Positions 126 through 28,161 of a DNA stretch of 30,362 bases are shown here, in pieces (position 1 is the stretch's first letter; every line of letters begins with the position of its first letter). A model generated the notes under the pieces. It made no database searches, had not been told where the DNA came from, and saw nothing but the letters and a program-made list of their open reading frames with translations. The position numbers and the translations under genes are program-made. Source of the DNA: a virus; IMG/VR virus record IMGVR_UViG_3300001683_000036, positions 1-30,362 of that record; one strand, 5' to 3'.

Positions 126-154
126 ATCTTACGACATATTTTCGTTAAAGTCAA
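126..154 (-). promoter_or_regulatory. sigma70-type promoter P1
   Basis: Read on the minus strand, the -35 box TTGACT (154-149) is followed by a 17-base spacer and the -10 box TAAGAT (131-126). An A-rich stretch (AAAAAAAGTGAAAAAAA) lies just upstream, like an UP element. Box sequences, spacing and flanks match the promoter at 583-611 almost exactly. The predicted start of transcription is about position 119, a few bases before the ATG at 115. This implies a leaderless or nearly leaderless message for the partial gene. Confidence 0.75.
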
Positions 155-172
155 GTGTTTTTTTCACTTTTT

Positions 173-421
173 TTAGATTAATTCCAACATTGACATTGGA
201 ACATTATATAACCGACCTCTCATATCAACAACACATTTAACTTTGTTGATTTTAGTAATCCTACCTTCGGTTTTCTTGGTCTTTTGGACTACATAAACTT
301 TATCTCCAACTGAAAATGACATTCTCCCCAACATCACTTTACAATCATTGATAAATGCTGATAGTTCATTCAAGTCTGAAAGACTATCCAATTTTCTGAT
401 TTTGTTTTTTATTGATAACAT
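173..421 (-). CDS. conserved small phage protein with SH3/KOW-like C-terminal half
   Basis: An 82-residue protein of unknown function. The N-terminal ~30 residues are a charged helix (KNKIRKLDSLSDLNELSAFI). The rest is short beta-strand-like segments (FSVGDKVYVV, GRITKINKVKCVVDM, LYNVPMSMLELI), a pattern typical of a small SH3-like barrel. I recall similar small proteins in T4-like cyanophages and marine phages, without a known role. The ATG at 421 is preceded by a GAGAGAG purine run about 7 bases upstream, which serves as ribosome binding site. It is transcribed from promoter P2 (583-611) through a leader of about 150 bases, and its stop lies just upstream of promoter P1. It could be a nucleic-acid-binding regulator, but that is a guess from the fold pattern. 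Confidence 0.75.
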   Translation of the reverse strand: MLSIKNKIRKLDSLSDLNELSAFINDCKVMLGRMSFSVGDKVYVVQKTKKTEGRITKINKVKCVVDMRGRLYNVPMSMLELI

Positions 422-582: not shown

Positions 583-611
583 ATCTTACGACAAAAAAAC
601 GAGAAAGTCAA
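583..611 (-). promoter_or_regulatory. sigma70-type promoter P2
   Basis: On the minus strand, the -35 box TTGACT (611-606), a 17-base spacer and the -10 box TAAGAT (588-583) form a near-consensus promoter. It has the same A-rich upstream stretch as P1. The TGA stop codon of the GH6 gene (610-608) is embedded in the -35 box, so the promoter overlaps the end of that gene. It drives the 82-residue gene through the long leader. The shared flanks (TCAAGT after the -10 box, AAAAAAGTGAAAAAAA before the -35 box) indicate that P1 and P2 are copies of one element. Confidence 0.78.
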
Positions 612-1459
612 GTCTTTTTTTCACTTTTTTTGTTATGTATCAAATCTAATGCCAGATTATGAGAGAATCTACCAGCTTTAGGACCCCCATTGACCTTTCC
701 ATCACTTTCACCTGGTACTTTAATCCAAAGGTATGCATCTACTATTTCATCACAAGTTTTAGTAGTTGGATATTCACCTATTGACCTACCATATGGATTG
801 AAATGTTCTTTTGTTGCTCCTGTACCATTTCTTGATGTATCTATAACAAAATGTTTTCCGTCTAATCTCTTACTTATAGACTTTCCATACTTATAACAAG
901 TTGTAGTTGCGTAATAATTACTCGTATTTATACTGAATCCTTTTATCTTATTTACATCACACATTCTTAGATATGCAACTGCCTTTGGAACTGATAACCA
1001 ACCAGGATTACCAATATCTAAATAAACAATTGAATTTGTCTTACTCAACAACTTAACTGATTTTTTTATCAAAGATAATCGTTTTAATCCATCTACCACT
1101 CCCATATCTTCCATATGTGGAATACAATCTGGTTCGTATATCACAATAGGACTTCTATCACCTATTGCGTCACAGAACCCTCTAATAAACTTTAAATACT
1201 CTTTATCACTATTTGCACCACCCTTTGAGTGATGGCCTAAATCTCTGTATGGGATTGAATATATGACTAATATTGGTAAATACGGGTCTGCCCGTTTTAA
1301 TAGTCTTTGGATTGATTTTTTAGTCTTTCTAATAGTTCGTTTGGGCCCAACACCATACCAAAAAGCCGTTGGTTCTCTTGTGATTTCTTTTATTTGAGGA
1401 TATTCTTTACAAACTTCTTTATGACTGTTCCATTCAGGATAGTAAAACCTATAATTCAT
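608..1459 (-). CDS. glycoside hydrolase family 6 (cellulase/cellobiohydrolase-type) protein
   Basis: A 283-residue protein that is essentially a complete GH6 catalytic domain. GH6 enzymes cut beta-1,4-glucosidic bonds with inversion of configuration. Family motifs appear in the right order: VIYSIPYRDLGHHSKGGA (~66-82), IVIYEPDCIPHM (~105-116), VYLDIGNPGWL (~145-155), GFSINTSNY (~174-182), FVIDTSRNGTG (~204-214), NPYGRSIG (~221-228) and DAYLWIKVPGESDG (~241-254). The aspartates D73, D111 and D253 align by motif with the catalytic and supporting acids of known GH6 enzymes (D175, D221 and D401 of Trichoderma Cel6A). There is no signal peptide, linker or carbohydrate-binding module, so export would depend on lysis or on being part of the virion. 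The ATG at 1459 overlaps the end of the upstream gene by 11 bases. Base composition matches its neighbours. The family call is secure; the polymer attacked is unknown and could be cellulose-like exopolysaccharide or another glucan. Confidence 0.93.
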   Translation of the reverse strand: MNYRFYYPEWNSHKEVCKEYPQIKEITREPTAFWYGVGPKRTIRKTKKSIQRLLKRADPYLPILVIYSIPYRDLGHHSKGGANSDKEYLKFIRGFCDAIGDRSPIVIYEPDCIPHMEDMGVVDGLKRLSLIKKSVKLLSKTNSIVYLDIGNPGWLSVPKAVAYLRMCDVNKIKGFSINTSNYYATTTCYKYGKSISKRLDGKHFVIDTSRNGTGATKEHFNPYGRSIGEYPTTKTCDEIVDAYLWIKVPGESDGKVNGGPKAGRFSHNLALDLIHNKKSEKKT

Positions 1460-1887: not shown

Positions 1888-4572
1888 CTACTCCTCTTCA
1901 CTCTCTAATTTTTCTTGTAGTTTTTCTGCTTCTACTAACTTGGCCATAGTCTCATCTAAATCCTTTTGTTTTGCCTTAGTAAGACCACCCTTCTTAGATT
2001 TTTTAATTTCTTCCAATGCATCTCTTTTCCTCTCTAATACTTTAATTCTTTTTTTGTTGGTTTCCCTTAATTTTCTTTTCCCTTCTGGGAGATTAGCTTC
2101 AGTATCGGATACTTCATCATCCCTTCTATCATAAATATCTAAAAGTTGATCAGAATAAGTTACTCTATCATTTGCTGGCCATTTTTTTGGATCTGCCTCT
2201 CCGTCATTCTTCAATACTTTCTGGAAATACCCAGTTGTTCCCATTTCAAGAGTAGGTGATGCGTTTGTTCCTCTTGACCTTGCCCTTAATGTAACCAAAG
2301 GTCTATTTCCATCTATATGTGTAATAAAAATAGTACCTGTAGCGTAATCTATTTCTATCTTTTCAAGTAATTTATCCACAATTTCTTGTTCAATTTTTTT
2401 TCTTTTTTTCTCCCAAGCTTCAAATCCTTTAGGGTCCTTTGTTTTACTTGGTTTAGGTCCTAATTCATCAAGTTCTTTTAAGAGATTCTCAATTGTTCCA
2501 TCGTCATTGAATAAAGCTAATAGAGTTTTTCTATCTTGTATAACTCCTGACAGTCCATCTTCTTCTCCTTCATCACCATATAAAACTTGAAATGAATCAT
2601 ATGTATCAGATTCTTCATCACCCAATATTCCTAATGAACTTAATATATGTGAACTCTTTAAAAACCACTTTTTAAATGCTTTTTTGGCCTCTGGAGTATC
2701 TAAGGCCTCATACATTGATTTTGTTAATACGGCATCTAATTTTCGTTGTTCATCATATGGTTTATGGTGTGCTTCTCGTTGTGGTTCTGTCCAATCGGGA
2801 TTATTATAATTTTGAAAAATTCTAAAAGTAGATTTATGGTCGGTTTTTGACATTAAATCCCCTTCGGCGAGAGATTCAGTTTGTCTTTGACCATAATTAT
2901 TTTTTTTCTTCGTCTCTAATTTTTCTCTTGCCCTTTTTAAAGCTTTTTTTGCGTTTTTGGTTTTGGTTTCTCGTTTTTTATTTTCTTTTTCTTGCCAAGC
3001 TAGTCTTTTCTTTGCATCTTTATACTGTTTACTATCTTTACCTTCGGGATATTTCTTTTCAATTTGACTTAATACATAATGTCCACCCTCTGCAACTTCA
3101 CGATATTTTCTATTTTCTTCTTCTTGTTTTTTTATTGATTTTTCTTGTTTTTTTATTGATTTTTCTTCTTCTGCCAACTCAGATTGAGAAATTTTTGGAT
3201 TAGTTGTCATTAAGTTATGAACATCAATCTCATCGTCATTTAACCATGCATCTCTATGTCCCAACACACCTTCTAAAAACTCTGTATGTGCTTCAAGTTT
3301 GGTTTGACCTGTAATCTTTTTCAGTTGTGATTGAAGATTCTCACAATCCTCTGATCCTCTATTTTCCTTTCTATCACATCCGAGGGCGTATGCCTGTTTT
3401 ATAAGAGAATGAACATGCCTAACTCCTTCAGCATAAGTTTTATGTTCTGGACTATCTTTATCTAATATTGCTGTAGCTGTTTTTTGTTCTCTTTCGGCCT
3501 TTCTTTTCTCATGATGTTCTATGGCCGCTGATTGTCGTATCTTATCTACGAGTTCTTTGGCTTCATCTATACATTTTTCATCTCCATTACATTCATCGGT
3601 CATATCCTTTTCCATCTTATCCGTCAATTTAACGATTTCTTTTGCATATCCTTTATTAATCCAAAAAACTGCTCCACTTTCTTTTAATGAAACTCCAGCC
3701 AACTTACCATCTGTCGTTTTAATAAACATATCTGCTGGAGTTTTATGTCCAGTTGTTCCAACTAATTTTTGTCCGTCTGGGGTATCCCATGCAATTTCTT
3801 CAATATTCTCAATACCTATTCCATCTGGATTCTTTTCATCATCTTTTATCAATAACCTATCAAGAGTATTGAATGATGCTTCCATATTTTTACAAGATAA
3901 AAGATATACTGTTTTCTTTTTATCAGTTGAACATATTTCTTCTAACTCTCCTCTTAAATCTTTTAAAGTAACATCTAACCATTCTTTCTTCTGTTTCCAG
4001 TCCATGGCCTCCCAATCTTCACGTGTTTTTGCACCTTTTGGTGGTGGGCCACCAAATTCTTCATCCCACTTGTCTTTAGCTTTCATTGCCCCTTCAACCA
4101 CAACCGCTTCTTGTGCCTGTGATTCTGGAGTTCCCATTCCTGCATCTTCGTCTGATAAATCATCGTTCTTCTGTCGGCGAGCAGCATTTTCAACATTCTT
4201 TCTATCGTTTTTTCTTAATTCTTCTTTTTCATCATCAGTTAATTCTTCATCTTCATCTTCAAAATCCTCACCACCAATATAAACGTTTGCAGACTCTTCA
4301 CTGTCCATCCCATATCTTGGAATGTCTTGACCCGTTTTCCATCCTGCCCAACCACCATCTGTCTGCCAAACACTATTTTTTTCTCTTTTCTCAACAATTA
4401 CTTCTTTTCCATTTCTCAAATTACCAAGAATCTCATTCGTGGCATTCTCATCCCAACCAAACTTTATTAATGATTCTCGTAACAAAGCAAGGTGTCGTGG
4501 ATTGGTCATATCTGGACCACCATCTCCGCACTTATGTGCAAAATCTGATAATATTTTATCCCAATTTTTCAT
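1888..4572 (-). CDS. large phage protein with a candidate PD-(D/E)XK nuclease core
   Basis: An 894-residue, highly charged protein. Residues ~1-55 form a conserved-looking head (GPDMTNPRHLALLRESLIKF, then GWDENATNEILGNLR) that I recall from many uncultured marine phage proteins. An acidic low-complexity region follows (~100-145). Around residues 276-300 the sequence HKTPADMFIKTTDGKLAGVS continues into LKES. D281 followed by S295-L-K297 fits the spacing of a PD-(D/E)XK nuclease with serine in place of the acidic residue. Residues ~455-560 are coiled coil with repeats such as SIKKQEKSIKKQEEE. The C-terminal part includes a strand-rich stretch (IDYATGTIFITHIDGNRPLV), and another coiled coil ends the protein. 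The start overlaps the polymerase-like gene by ATGA, so translation is coupled. Nuclease activity is inferred from one motif pair only. Confidence 0.85.
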   Translation of the reverse strand: MKNWDKILSDFAHKCGDGGPDMTNPRHLALLRESLIKFGWDENATNEILGNLRNGKEVIVEKREKNSVWQTDGGWAGWKTGQDIPRYGMDSEESANVYIGGEDFEDEDEELTDDEKEELRKNDRKNVENAARRQKNDDLSDEDAGMGTPESQAQEAVVVEGAMKAKDKWDEEFGGPPPKGAKTREDWEAMDWKQKKEWLDVTLKDLRGELEEICSTDKKKTVYLLSCKNMEASFNTLDRLLIKDDEKNPDGIGIENIEEIAWDTPDGQKLVGTTGHKTPADMFIKTTDGKLAGVSLKESGAVFWINKGYAKEIVKLTDKMEKDMTDECNGDEKCIDEAKELVDKIRQSAAIEHHEKRKAEREQKTATAILDKDSPEHKTYAEGVRHVHSLIKQAYALGCDRKENRGSEDCENLQSQLKKITGQTKLEAHTEFLEGVLGHRDAWLNDDEIDVHNLMTTNPKISQSELAEEEKSIKKQEKSIKKQEEENRKYREVAEGGHYVLSQIEKKYPEGKDSKQYKDAKKRLAWQEKENKKRETKTKNAKKALKRAREKLETKKKNNYGQRQTESLAEGDLMSKTDHKSTFRIFQNYNNPDWTEPQREAHHKPYDEQRKLDAVLTKSMYEALDTPEAKKAFKKWFLKSSHILSSLGILGDEESDTYDSFQVLYGDEGEEDGLSGVIQDRKTLLALFNDDGTIENLLKELDELGPKPSKTKDPKGFEAWEKKRKKIEQEIVDKLLEKIEIDYATGTIFITHIDGNRPLVTLRARSRGTNASPTLEMGTTGYFQKVLKNDGEADPKKWPANDRVTYSDQLLDIYDRRDDEVSDTEANLPEGKRKLRETNKKRIKVLERKRDALEEIKKSKKGGLTKAKQKDLDETMAKLVEAEKLQEKLESEEE

Positions 4573-5840
4573 AATTTCTCTGTGATATCTTCCATTTCAT
4601 GGTAGTTTGTCCCCTTACTTGTCTTAGTGGGAAATAACCCGTTACTCTCGATAATCTTTTTAATTTTTTTCAAAAAGTCCACTCCATCGTCTAAGTTAAA
4701 GTCAAACAAAAATGAATCATAACTGTACAAAATCAATTTACTTTTGTATGATTCTAAAAAAGGAATAAGGTTACTTAACATTTTCATATTGTTTTCTGTT
4801 TCCATTAACTGAATCATATAGTTAAATAATTTATTCCGATTCATGTCAGATAAATTTTTCCTAAATATCTTCTTATTATAAATATTAGAAGTTATAAAAT
4901 CTCTTTGTTTATACTCACTCCAAATTTTATTAATATAATCGTGAACTTTACCGAAAAATGGATTTATTTGAACTACTTCTATTGGAATATGACCATACAA
5001 ATATTGAAATGACCTATTTTTGGATTCATCATAAGTAACATCACCGTAAAACTTTGCCATATGTTTATGAACTGAACCTTCTGGGAATTTATAATCTACC
5101 ACTTCACCTATCAACCGTAAGTGATATGCGTCATAATCGAATTCAACCAACATTCCATTTTCAAATCTACTCTTAAATGGTTTTCGTGAACCATCTGTTT
5201 TGTTTAATGCTGCAAAATTAATTCCACCAAATCTATTACTTGGTCTACCAGTTGATGTATAGAGATTATATTCACTATACACCAATTCATCATTATATCT
5301 TAATCCTGATGATTCTAAATACGTTAAGTTATCAATAATATTATCATTATATATTTCGTAACCACAATCCAACCACATCTCTAATTTCTTATATAATATG
5401 CGACAATACTCAACGTGTTTCAAAATAGGAATAACAGTATTTATATCTTTCATTTTATAATATTTCCTATTAAAATAATCATGAGAATTTGTAGTTATAT
5501 CATCAATATCTAATGGTTCATTATTATTCATATAATAAACAAGATTAATATCTATCACATTTTTCCATTTAACAATATGATTAAATTGTTTCTTATCATA
5601 AATATATTTTTTATTATCTGAATTAAGTTTATCGAGATAAGATATATCAAGATTTATTGCTTCACTATGATTAAACGGTAAAATATATTCATCACCACCT
5701 AATAATTTCACATATAATAGGCACAAAGAATTCTCAAGTGGATGTTTATTCACATCAGATAAAACTGGAATTAAAATACAATCAGAGTTTTTATATTTTT
5801 CTATAAAATCTTCAAACTCATGTTTCGTTTCTACTATCAC
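4569..5840 (-). CDS. short family-A (PolA-like) DNA polymerase-related protein
   Basis: A 423-residue protein with the motifs of DNA polymerase I in order. There is STGRPSN (~196-202, compare TGRLS); motif A, LVEFDYDAYHLRLIG, with D235 at the place of D705 of E. coli Pol I; motif B, KNRSFQYLYG, with K274, F278 and Y282 at the places of K758, F762 and Y766; NYMIQ (340-344, compare NAPMQ); and motif C, LYSYDSFLFDF, with D375 at the place of D882. The first ~150 residues look like a worn 3'-5' exonuclease fold (IYDKKQF, VIDINLVYYM) without the DxE metal-binding pair. The arginine expected four residues before K274 is Y. Motif C reads YDS instead of HDE. It is much shorter than Klenow fragment (~600 residues). 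The start is a GTG at 5840 overlapping rimK-like by 23 bases; no better start lies nearby. Role could be repair, gap filling or an inactive relative. Confidence 0.82.
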   Translation of the reverse strand: MIVETKHEFEDFIEKYKNSDCILIPVLSDVNKHPLENSLCLLYVKLLGGDEYILPFNHSEAINLDISYLDKLNSDNKKYIYDKKQFNHIVKWKNVIDINLVYYMNNNEPLDIDDITTNSHDYFNRKYYKMKDINTVIPILKHVEYCRILYKKLEMWLDCGYEIYNDNIIDNLTYLESSGLRYNDELVYSEYNLYTSTGRPSNRFGGINFAALNKTDGSRKPFKSRFENGMLVEFDYDAYHLRLIGEVVDYKFPEGSVHKHMAKFYGDVTYDESKNRSFQYLYGHIPIEVVQINPFFGKVHDYINKIWSEYKQRDFITSNIYNKKIFRKNLSDMNRNKLFNYMIQLMETENNMKMLSNLIPFLESYKSKLILYSYDSFLFDFNLDDGVDFLKKIKKIIESNGLFPTKTSKGTNYHEMEDITEKL

Positions 5841-6729
5841 TATAACCTATTTTATGTTTTACATATGTAACTATTTGTTCTGCAATATTTGTCTTGGTAA
5901 ATTTATCCATTCCTTCAAAACCAGGAGATGAGTTAACCTCACAAATACTATATCCTTCTCCATCAAATAACAAGTCCACCCCTGCTATATCCAAACCAAG
6001 TAGTCTTGCTGATTCACCACCTAACCATTCTATCTCATCATCAATTTGATATGGAATACCTTTACCACCTCTTGTAATGTTAGCTCTGAAATCGTCATCT
6101 ATTGATTGTCTCATCATGCAACCAACTACTTTACCATTTACCACTAAAACTCTTAAATCTTTTCCATGAGAATCCTTGATAAACTCTTGAACTATAATGT
6201 TATAACTTGGTTTGGTTATCTCTGCCATCTTCAAAAGTTGTTCAAATTGTTTCTTGGTTTCTGCTAAGAATACACCAGCACCAAATGAACCACTTAATGT
6301 TTTAATAATAACAGGAAAGTTTATGTTCTTCTCTACAAAATCTATATTGATTGGATGTCTTACTAAAAGTGTTTTTGGTACTGGTAAATTAGACTGTCCT
6401 AATATTTGTTGAGTGTATAACTTATCTTTAACTGTATCTATGGAATTACTTCCATTAATAAGTATCACTCCCAATCTTTCTAAGTGCCGTATAATCGCTT
6501 TTATAAAATATGTAGTTCCACTACCCGTTCTTGGTATTACAAAATCAGGTAATGGTCTTGACTTACCATCAACTAAAATACTTTTTCTATCATCTCTATC
6601 TACGAAAATATCTACGTCTTGTGGATTTACAACTCGGACCTTAATATCTTGTTTCTCAAACTCTTCTATAAGTTTATTAGTTTCCCAAGATTCATCTATA
6701 GGATTTTTATATAATATCCAACCATTCAT
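5818..6729 (-). CDS. RimK-like ATP-grasp ligase
   Basis: A 303-residue member of the ATP-grasp superfamily closest in pattern to RimK/LysX/GshB. Such enzymes use ATP to join an amino acid to a carboxylate; RimK itself adds glutamates to the C-terminus of ribosomal protein S6. Visible features are the substrate-fold N-terminus; FPVIIKTLSGSFGAGVFLAE (lysine and glycine-rich loop); IIVQEFI, the adenine-contacting segment; GKDLRVLVVNGKVVG; and the metal-binding end DLLFDGEGYSICEVNSSPGF, whose E and N bind Mg-ATP. I choose the ATG at 6729 because it forms an ATGA overlap with the thyX stop; a TTG two codons upstream is less likely. The target in the infected cell is unknown. Candidates are ribosomal protein S6, another host protein, or a small metabolite. 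Confidence 0.88.
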   Translation of the reverse strand: MNGWILYKNPIDESWETNKLIEEFEKQDIKVRVVNPQDVDIFVDRDDRKSILVDGKSRPLPDFVIPRTGSGTTYFIKAIIRHLERLGVILINGSNSIDTVKDKLYTQQILGQSNLPVPKTLLVRHPINIDFVEKNINFPVIIKTLSGSFGAGVFLAETKKQFEQLLKMAEITKPSYNIIVQEFIKDSHGKDLRVLVVNGKVVGCMMRQSIDDDFRANITRGGKGIPYQIDDEIEWLGGESARLLGLDIAGVDLLFDGEGYSICEVNSSPGFEGMDKFTKTNIAEQIVTYVKHKIGYSDSRNET

Positions 6730-7418
6730 TTCCAATATACTTCACTCCATATTTTAGTAGTTTCTGGATAAACCTCTAACATTATTTTCTTTAATGCTCT
6801 TGCATACTCTTGTATTTCTACTTGAGCTGTTTTCTCATCTCTGAGTTCAATAAAATTCATAATGGATTGAAATGATGCTGTCCACCATACTTGTGTATAA
6901 ACTGTTAATGGTAGAATACTTCTGGCCTGTTCTTTTGCCATTCCCATTTCAAGTAATTTATTATAATTATCAACTGACTTCTTTTGAGCCTCTCTCCAAT
7001 ACCAACCTGCCTTTGATTGATGTTCAACCAATCCTTCACTTGCCTGTTTGTTATCATCTGATTGTGCTCTGTATTCACTTGGTTCATAAAAATCTACATA
7101 CGGAACATAACGACCACTAATCTCGTTCCAAGCATGGTCTTTGGTAGGATGGCTTGATGTGGTTTCGATTCCAACAACGTGTTTATACCATTGTCGCATA
7201 ACGAACTCTGGTGCCTTGATAATCATCATCACGTGTTGGTGTCTGAATGGGCTGAAATGTTTGTGTTTGATTAAGAACTTGGATAGTTTCCTATCTTTCT
7301 CTGTAAATTCATCACTACGACCACCGAATGAAACTCTAGCGGCATTTACAGGTGTTAAGTCGTCTCCAAGAACATCAACGACTTCTATATAACCTTTGTC
7401 TAATACGTTGACTTTCAT
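6726..7418 (-). CDS. thyX: flavin-dependent thymidylate synthase
   Basis: A 230-residue ThyX. It makes dTMP from dUMP using FAD, NADPH and methylene-tetrahydrofolate, supplying thymidine for phage DNA. Motifs seen are HKHFSPFRHQH (~52-62), RQWYKHVVG (75-83), WNEISGRYVP (97-106) and SILPLTVYTQVWWTASFQSI (~167-186), followed by NFIELR. The usual ThyX signature RHRxxSxNExSxRY is split here: KH replaces RH, and about 13 extra residues separate it from NEISGRY. I recall the same arrangement in ThyX of cyanophages and other marine phages. A TTTGATATATATA box lies just upstream, with an AAAGG ribosome binding site before the ATG. The gene opens a coupled cassette with the rimK-like, polymerase-like and 894-residue genes. 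Confidence 0.95.
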   Translation of the reverse strand: MKVNVLDKGYIEVVDVLGDDLTPVNAARVSFGGRSDEFTEKDRKLSKFLIKHKHFSPFRHQHVMMIIKAPEFVMRQWYKHVVGIETTSSHPTKDHAWNEISGRYVPYVDFYEPSEYRAQSDDNKQASEGLVEHQSKAGWYWREAQKKSVDNYNKLLEMGMAKEQARSILPLTVYTQVWWTASFQSIMNFIELRDEKTAQVEIQEYARALKKIMLEVYPETTKIWSEVYWK

Positions 7419-25764: not shown

Positions 25765-28161
25765 TTACGCTGGGAAAGTTGCTCCCGTTGGAAGTACCAC
25801 GAAGTCAAGTACGATAAACTCTGCGGTTCTCGTTGGTTGAATAAAAATTTGTCCAACCAATTGATTTCTATCAATCACATCAGGTGTGTTATTGGAATCA
25901 TCCATAACTACCTTAAATGCTGATAAACCACTATTAGATTGTACTGATTCTAAGAACGGATTCACAATGTTCAAGAAACGATTTCTTGTTGCTGATGTGT
26001 TCTGTTCAAAGACTAAGTATCTACTTGACGAAGCGATAAACTTCTTCAGTCTAATTAACAATCTACGTACATTAACCCTATCGAGTGCTGATGGACGACC
26101 TTGTAAGGTCTTTTGTCCCCAAACTACCACACCCTGACCTGGGAATGAAGCGATTGGATTAACTCGTGCTTCATAGAGTTCATCTCTTTCGTCATGAGTC
26201 AATCTTGTTTGTGCTTCAAGTACAGTTGTTAAACCACCACGATTCAAACCTGCTGGTGCGAACCATTCATGTGCTACTTGGTCTGTAAATGCTATTACTC
26301 CAGGTAGTACAACTGAAGGTGGGACCCAAACTGGAAGTGCTGTGGCTCTATCAACAATCTTTACCCAAGGATAATAGGTTGCTGCGTAGTTTGTATCAAG
26401 TGCGGATATTGCTGCGGTTGCACTTGCAATTGAACCACCTTGAATACCACAATCAAATACATAGAATGCATCACCACGTTCTTCACACTTAGCTATTGCA
26501 TGATTTGTAATCTTTGGATGTAAATCATGAATAATACCAGGTGTTATTAACATATTGATATCAAACTCATCTGGATTACTTACTGCGTTAATTGCTTTCT
26601 TGTAAGCTACTGCTCCGGTCGCGGTTGCACTTGAAATGTCAAACCCTTGTGTGTTTACATTTGTAATACTCGCTCCTGTCAATTTTGGATTTGCTGGGTT
26701 ATCACCATCGAATCCACCTTGAAATGGAACAACAAACTTCCGTTGTTTCATATGTGATGTAGTTAGTTTAATAGACGAAGTAGCAGCTGCCCAATCAGTT
26801 CCTTCTGTTGTACCCAAGGTTGAGGCATCATCATGTCCTAACATATTTTCCAAACTCATACTTACATTTAGTCCAGATGTAAAATCATTAACAGGAACTA
26901 AATACTGTCCAGCATCTGCATTTTTGTAATCTACTCCATAAAGTACATTACTATCAAATTCATCTTGTGCATTTGATTGAGTTACTTTGAATATCCAATT
27001 TGGCATTAATGCATCTTCTAATGGGGCTTGAATTGCTGCATGTCCCATTGGAACTAAAGCTACTGGTATTGAACCATCTGAAATGGCGGAAAAATCAGAA
27101 ACATAAATGTGTTTAGATCTATTATTCCAATCACCATTATAAGTTAATTTACCATTAGAGTCAATCGTTACATATCTATCACCAATCCTACGAGCGAAGA
27201 AATTCGTACTCTTAGGATTAAAATTAAGACTATCCCACTGTTCCAAAACGTTATCTCTTGTTAAGTTGTTATCATTTAATCCAGTTTGTCTTACTTGTAA
27301 TGAAAACTGACCATAATCACTACCGGCAATATCACCTGCTTTCTTAACATTCAAAATAGCAATCTTAAATTTGTTATTTACATCACTACCATGTGAACGA
27401 GTATTAACTTTAAATAAGTTATATCGTGCATTATTAATCTCTTGTGATTGAACATATGGTGTTGATGCGTTTGAATAATTAGCGGATACAAATTTACCTG
27501 TGGTAGCATTATCTATTGAAATTGAACCAGTATGATCTGCAGAAGTTCCTGTGTCCCATCCATATGAACTTTGTTGATACTTAAAGTTCTTATACAAATA
27601 TACAGCCAAAGTTGCAGTTCCTGACTTTTGAACTTGTGGATCTGAACTAATTACTTGGTCAATATAATTTGCACTTGAAGTGTTAAATGATATTGAATAA
27701 TCAGTTGAAGCTACATCAGTACCATTAACAGTTAGTGTTTGTGAAGTATATGCACTTTCGGTTGCTGCAAGTGTACAAGTACTTAAATCACCTGTACCAT
27801 TTGTTCCTCCACGAGATGGTGCCAATACTGCTACAGTTCTTACAAATGATGCTGCTGAACTTGAAAGTTGAAGTGAGACAAAATCTGATGTATATCCACC
27901 AGTATTAAGAACACGAACAATCGTAACTGTTCCTGCACTACTTAAATATTGTTCTACGGCGTACGGTGTGTAAAATCTCGAATCCGTAGATCCAAACATT
28001 TCTTCAAACTCTGAAAAATTGCTAATTACCGTTGGAACAAATGCGGGACCTTTAACTGTTGGTCCAATTATACACGCTCCAATTGCTGCAATTCCTGCGG
28101 GAAGAAATGATAAATCACGTTCACGAGTAAATACACCCGGACTTACGATTCTTTCTGCCAT
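25765..28161 (-). CDS. tail sheath protein (T4 gp18-like)
   Basis: A 798-residue contractile sheath protein. The start IVSPGVFTRERDLSFLPAGI (~5-24) followed by IGACIIGPTVKGPAFVPTVI is the typical sheath N-terminus, and FEEMFGSTDSRFYTPYAVEQ also matches. The C-terminal third is strongly conserved: APAGLNRGGLTTVLEAQTRL, PIASFPGQGVVVWGQKTLQG, LDRVNVRRLLIRLKKFI and FEQNTSATRNRFLNIVNPFL, then VGQIFIQPTRTAEFIVLDFV. Residues ~100-480 form a variable outer domain rich in Ser and Thr. It is longer than T4 gp18 (659), with the extra length in that middle part. The ATG follows a TAGGAG site. Upstream lie two copies of the ATATTTATAGT box, and a strong terminator follows the gene. Confidence 0.97.
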   Translation of the reverse strand: MAERIVSPGVFTRERDLSFLPAGIAAIGACIIGPTVKGPAFVPTVISNFSEFEEMFGSTDSRFYTPYAVEQYLSSAGTVTIVRVLNTGGYTSDFVSLQLSSSAASFVRTVAVLAPSRGGTNGTGDLSTCTLAATESAYTSQTLTVNGTDVASTDYSISFNTSSANYIDQVISSDPQVQKSGTATLAVYLYKNFKYQQSSYGWDTGTSADHTGSISIDNATTGKFVSANYSNASTPYVQSQEINNARYNLFKVNTRSHGSDVNNKFKIAILNVKKAGDIAGSDYGQFSLQVRQTGLNDNNLTRDNVLEQWDSLNFNPKSTNFFARRIGDRYVTIDSNGKLTYNGDWNNRSKHIYVSDFSAISDGSIPVALVPMGHAAIQAPLEDALMPNWIFKVTQSNAQDEFDSNVLYGVDYKNADAGQYLVPVNDFTSGLNVSMSLENMLGHDDASTLGTTEGTDWAAATSSIKLTTSHMKQRKFVVPFQGGFDGDNPANPKLTGASITNVNTQGFDISSATATGAVAYKKAINAVSNPDEFDINMLITPGIIHDLHPKITNHAIAKCEERGDAFYVFDCGIQGGSIASATAAISALDTNYAATYYPWVKIVDRATALPVWVPPSVVLPGVIAFTDQVAHEWFAPAGLNRGGLTTVLEAQTRLTHDERDELYEARVNPIASFPGQGVVVWGQKTLQGRPSALDRVNVRRLLIRLKKFIASSSRYLVFEQNTSATRNRFLNIVNPFLESVQSNSGLSAFKVVMDDSNNTPDVIDRNQLVGQIFIQPTRTAEFIVLDFVVLPTGATFPA

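Follow-up and report, generated by a model that had tools for sequence, protein, structure and literature searches.

The window, by which we mean the whole 30,362-bp IMG/VR contig analysed here, encodes a bare catalytic domain that belongs beyond doubt to the GH6 family and is almost certainly catalytically competent. All viral GH6 sequences that we sampled, including this one, form a single virus-only clade whose members are disulphide-poor, carry no export signal and occupy several places in phage genomes. We predict that the enzyme is an endo-beta-1,4-glucanase, and we give about an even chance to the reading that it is freed at lysis, perhaps virion-bound, and cuts a cellulose-like host matrix. 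More tentatively, and with somewhat less confidence than that, we propose that the virus-only, cytosol-folding GH6 is a soluble "spreading factor" of the phages of cellulose-coated aquatic bacteria, moving among slots and among unrelated myovirus backbones, including jumbo phages.

The GH6 gene is a complete reading frame, and its start codon is backed by relatives that start at the equivalent residue. A Pfam profile search matched the product to PF01341 with an E-value of 4.1e-46 and a score of 158.6 bits, where the cut-off is 27, and the alignment pairs residues 20-258 with positions 15-299 of the 305 in the profile, nearly its whole length. The first-pass annotation, which had described a complete GH6 enzyme, is thus confirmed. 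The top solved relatives are Mycobacterium tuberculosis Cel6 (6e-47) and Thermobifida fusca Cel6A (3e-36). The AlphaFold2 model (pLDDT 88.9, pTM 0.90) has the distorted beta/alpha barrel of GH6, as judged by its match to M. tuberculosis Cel6 (1up0; VIA Z = 36.3, with 276 residues superposed at an rmsd of 1.8 Å), and its overlay on T. fusca Cel6A gave Z = 32.9. When the model was searched with Foldseek, all of the first 44 PDB rows were GH6 proteins or GH6-based scaffolds. A search of PHROGs with the protein gave no match, and no GH6-like viral model was found in BFVD (best TM 0.44). The 283-residue domain agrees with the ~280-290 residues expected of an endo-type enzyme without extra tunnel-forming sequence, and the best structural fits are endoglucanases (278-300 residues), with cellobiohydrolases (358-428 residues) ranking lower. 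Domain size and this fit are the grounds on which we predict endo-beta-1,4-glucanase activity.

Table 1 Features of the window discussed in the text.
Feature	Position	Strand	Basis or remark
Promoter-like element TTGACT-17-TAAGAT, copy 2	126..154	-	Downstream of the 173..421 gene
82-aa gene, family c31	173..421	-	3' of promoter-like element; near GH6 in several relatives
Promoter-like element TTGACT-17-TAAGAT, copy 1	583..611	-	At GH6 3' end, directed away
GH6 endoglucanase-type gene, bare catalytic domain, 283 aa	608..1459	-	Reading frame, profile, solved relatives, model
Codon of D253	701..703	-	T. fusca Cel6A D265 by alignment
Codon of D111	1127..1129	-	T. fusca Cel6A D117 by alignment
Codon of D73	1241..1243	-	T. 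fusca Cel6A D79 by alignment
Conserved phage gene c3, 150 aa	1449..1901	-	Slot A of Immutovirus and Mel-JY01 is marked by its homologues
894-aa gene	1888..4572	-	Upstream, within GH6 block; conserved short N-terminus, variable remainder
Family-A DNA-polymerase-like gene	4569..5840	-	Homologue of Immutovirus gp001
RimK-type ATP-grasp ligase	5818..6735	-	Upstream co-oriented cargo; PF08443, 3.4e-51
ThyX	6726..7418	-	Upstream, co-oriented; profile match
Tail sheath	25765..28161	-	Links contig to Immutovirus/Mel-JY01-like myoviruses

The three key aspartates recognised in the first-pass annotation, D73, D111 and D253, align with those of T. fusca Cel6A, whose D117 is the proton donor, and none of the 97 distinct viral rows in our alignment departs from them. 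W34, Y67, D148, W154, N181, K247 and E251 are likewise retained in the window protein. Among the substrate-site positions examined, three differ from T. fusca: W231 is replaced by H219, H159 by N151 and S85 by K79. Asparagine at the second of these is also common among bacterial GH6. Lys79, which lies in an active-site loop, is found in 96 of 97 viral rows and in 3 of 52 bacterial ones, and R52, R56, P104 and H115 are among the other marks common to the viral rows. Since a substrate-site tryptophan has been lost in the window lineage and Lys79 is near-universal in the viruses, the true glycan may differ from plain cellulose. The enzyme could accordingly act, still outside the cell, on another beta-1,4-linked or modified host glycan such as a substituted or charged glucan, and the clade-specific residues and the lost tryptophan speak for this. 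All other catalytic positions and most substrate-contact positions are unchanged, however, and the characterised GH6 enzymes known to us act on beta-1,4-glucans. We regard such a shift in specificity as unlikely, and continue to favour a cellulose-like beta-1,4-glucan as the probable substrate.

The viral GH6 proteins are bare domains of about 270-294 residues; bacterial homologues carry 54-516 residues ahead of the catalytic domain, with one exception of 36. A hydrophobic N-terminus was sought in the viral rows and none was found, the maximum 12-residue hydropathy being 1.2 against a mean best value of 2.3 in the bacterial reading frames, whose starts are mostly strongly hydrophobic. Neither a signal peptide, as had been remarked for the window protein, nor a binding module was found in viral GH6. 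At the two positions of the first disulphide pair, T. fusca C80 and the residue bonded to it, cysteine is present in 52/52 and 51/52 bacterial rows but in 0/97 viral rows each. The second pair has it in 51/52 and 49/52 bacterial rows and in 69/97 and 15/97 viral rows, and both of its members are absent from the window protein. The window protein therefore does not have the features of a secreted bacterial GH6 cellulase, namely a signal peptide, disulphides and often a carbohydrate-binding module. The missing signal peptide and lost disulphides, read from sequence, point to an enzyme that would fold in the reducing cytosol and not be exported.

How widespread such genes are depends on the collection. 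The statement that GH6 is rare in phages holds for isolates, as a search of 50,697 phage records found it only in Streptomyces phage Gilgamesh (34% identical). It does not hold for IMG/VR, where GH6 is frequent: profile scans found 151 relatives with a first profile and 178 contigs with a second, on contigs of up to 340 kb. Each of nine large records examined has a single GH6 copy. A second candidate isolate, MT836874.1 (L009, labelled "Bacteriophage sp."), was rejected; by inspection it carries TonB-receptor, transmembrane and tRNA genes of Pseudomonas-like character, reads like a Pseudomonas chromosome with its own GH6, and is probably mislabelled. Host contamination or chimeric contigs were ruled out, because GH6 lies amid phage genes in many contigs.

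For phylogenetic analysis, the viral rows were the best matches to the window sequence and to group C, and the reference GH6 sequences, a partial sampling of bacteria, came from Actinomycetota, Myxococcota, Patescibacteria-type genomes and Proteobacteria plasmids. All sampled viral GH6 form one clade in a quick tree (SH-aLRT 100). In a careful tree, this virus-only clade has support of 100/99 and is found in 100% of 200 bootstrap trees, although the bootstrap had not fully settled. The Gilgamesh GH6 branches outside the clade, with a GH6 from a proteobacterial plasmid and a Pseudomonas-like one, so the family probably entered phages at least twice. Between close viral relatives dN/dS is 0.06-0.14, and viral GH6 is under purifying selection.

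The contig is that of a myovirus, as first described, with sheath, tube, tape measure and baseplate genes identified by PHROG matches. Viral GH6 genes occur in three settings. In slot A, the window's own, tail and baseplate genes are followed by ThyX, the polymerase-like gene, a variable large gene, c3 and GH6, and then, in relatives, by SSB, RecA and a 5'-3' exonuclease. The location at the end of a DNA-metabolism cassette given in the first-pass annotation is thus better described as a boundary, between the tail/baseplate-thyX-polymerase block and the SSB-RecA-exonuclease block of relatives; its view that this is no simple tail-spike depolymerase agrees with a single domain that is unfused to a fibre and lies between c3 and the replication module. 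In slot B (L039-L067), GH6 lies shortly ahead of a block holding baseplate wedge genes. In setting C it adjoins glycosyltransferase-like and, by inspection, peptide-deformylase-like genes, and for one phage of this setting the sheath is most like those of PA5oct and similar Pseudomonas jumbo phages (56%).

Slots A and B lie on a common backbone: the genes around GH6 in either slot have as homologues a run of consecutive genes in Flavobacterium phage immuto and, for those that were compared, in Microcystis phage Mel-JY01. In immuto the genes flanking slot B are just 33 bp apart, and slot A is occupied by other small genes in both immuto and Mel-JY01. About 32 related IMG/VR contigs have a c3-SSB gap of less than 150 bp and no GH6, and in further related contigs slot A is filled by unrelated genes. 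These empty or otherwise filled slots, together with the existence of a second slot, indicate that GH6 is accessory cargo. In the tree, slot-B sequences are nested among slot-A ones (L035, the window, L046), so a move from slot A to slot B is the simplest reading.

Several neighbouring genes deserve mention in their own right. Homologues of the 894-aa gene occupy the equivalent place in relatives and encode about 510-890 residues; the N-terminus is conserved (W-D-K-I-L..F..KC.GGAPD..NP.H...LRESL.KFGW), the remainder is highly variable, and the L030 version has, by eye, an HNH-like stretch. The product has the look of a polymorphic protein that is perhaps ejected. The RimK-type ligase may modify ribosomal protein S6 of the host. 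In L010 (13513-15120) and L011 (5177-6796), both relatives of the window phage, GH6 is followed after a few genes by one for a TROVE/Ro60 protein with a vWA domain (PF25045, 1.6e-63; PF05731, 3.8e-37). Between thyX and rimK in L010 (3258-5051) there are, by inspection, genes resembling glucosamine-6-phosphate deaminase, PIG-L deacetylase and glycosyltransferase. In L321 (4128-5663), prepilin-like frames (FTLIELVMVTIILGILAAVALPRY) take the place where other phages have GH6.

The strong promoter noted beside GH6 is a real element, TTGACTTT-N-TCGTAAGAT, but does not serve the gene. Its two copies in the window, near-identical with extended flanks, are both at or beyond the GH6 3' end and directed away, so that the element was ruled out as GH6's own promoter and would drive the next gene. 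It recurs in related phages, with copies that follow GH6 on its own strand at a distance of ~1-4 kb and one further copy far away. To our knowledge such elements are unlike Bacteroidota promoters, which gives a faint clue to the host. The end of c3 and the start of GH6 overlap by 11 nt, and in slot B there is a 4-nt overlap between GH6 and the preceding gene. Given these overlaps and the outward-directed elements downstream, GH6 seems to be part of the end of the preceding unit.

The mechanism that we propose is as follows. The gene would encode an active, inverting, endo-type beta-1,4-glucanase, as predicted from family, fold and intact active site. A transcription unit may run from the tail/baseplate side, with GH6 translationally coupled to the preceding gene, as the 11-nt overlap and the outward downstream promoter suggest. 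The infected cell would make the enzyme in its cytosol, in line with the missing signal peptide and disulphides, and set it free on lysis. Outside the cell it may cut a cellulose-like beta-1,4-glucan of the host matrix or sheath, and progeny would thereby escape trapping and reach new cells, both by analogy with Erwinia phage S6. GH6 would be optional cargo that moves among slots and unrelated phage backbones and is kept where hosts make the polymer. Cellulose on the host is an assumption of this explanation; the nearest isolates, immuto and Mel-JY01, are recorded from Flavobacterium and Microcystis. A cyanophage host was sought through psbA, and none of 22 GH6-bearing records, which are fragments, had a match. 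GH6 as the phage endolysin was ruled out: a related Immutovirus has an endolysin and a holin of its own elsewhere in its genome, and GH6 was the only match. A search for the Immutovirus-type endolysin in GH6-bearing contigs, which would miss remote lysins, gave no match.

Both routes put forward in the first-pass annotation, from inside the virion or following lysis, agree with the observations. Besides the shift in specificity considered above, the main rival to release at lysis is packaging in the virion. An enzyme at the baseplate or tail tip could cut or bind a cellulose-like matrix at adsorption, as with S6 gp095 and other virion depolymerases; phage S6 provides the precedent (PMC9544554), the window GH6 follows a baseplate block, and the slot-B GH6 shortly precedes the baseplate wedge block. 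Against this, GH6 consists of its catalytic domain alone and lacks any anchor, chaperone or fibre module, most same-backbone relatives lack it, and slot A takes unrelated cargo too, so that position is no sign of virion assembly. We therefore think packaging improbable, and prefer release at lysis. Still less probable, and quite unlikely in our view, is a role as an auxiliary metabolic gene, in which the enzyme would degrade glucan to supply carbon while the phage infects. Viral GH6 genes were so named in sediment and soil surveys (PMC8725595, PMC9948696), and by inspection L001/L010 have NagB- and PIG-L-like genes in the vicinity. This metabolic reading, which the first-pass annotation had also offered, found no positive support: the export signal is absent, neither a transporter nor a beta-glucosidase was recognised beside GH6, and cellulose is not a cytosolic substrate. 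That GH6 is a decayed or non-catalytic relic is scarcely credible, as nothing was found in its favour and the frame is intact, the active site invariant and dN/dS low.

If release at lysis is correct, a cellulose-like matrix would be a regular barrier for aquatic phages, which would counter it with a dedicated disulphide-free enzyme and not with a tail spike. GH6 would then mark many uncultured phages whose hosts are predicted to make beta-1,4-glucans. The viral clade would also offer enzymologists a collection of GH6 enzymes that fold in the cytosol.

GH6 is an old family, phage cellulases are already known, and GH6 has been listed in viral surveys. In the portions seen of the Mariana Trench and Aral Sea surveys, GH6 on viral contigs is listed among many carbon-degradation genes, as "AMGs", with no account of clade, disulphide loss, slot or mechanism (PMC8725595, PMC9948696). 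A disulphide-poor, unexported, virus-confined and slot-mobile GH6 clade appears undescribed in the 5.39 million open-access papers that our search covered.

M. tuberculosis Cel6 and T. fusca Cel6A resemble the phage enzyme in fold (Z of 36.3 and 32.9), catalytic-domain length, catalytic aspartates and short endo-type loops. The phage enzyme differs in being 30-33% identical to them, in having no signal peptide and neither disulphide, and in the replaced W231 equivalent and the lysine at 79. Gilgamesh gp72, annotated as a glycoside hydrolase, is likewise a GH6 domain and comes from an isolated phage, but it has a longer N-terminal part, adjoins minor tail genes and falls outside the viral clade. 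Erwinia phage S6 depends on the cellulose of its host and has genes for GH5 and GH48 glucanases, of which the GH5 was verified on carboxymethylcellulose (PMC9544554). Its gp094 (GH48) and gp095 (GH5) are, like the enzyme proposed here, phage-encoded beta-1,4-glucanases against host cellulose (PMC9544554), whereas they belong to other GH families, are multi-domain with probable virion-anchoring parts, and come from a podovirus.
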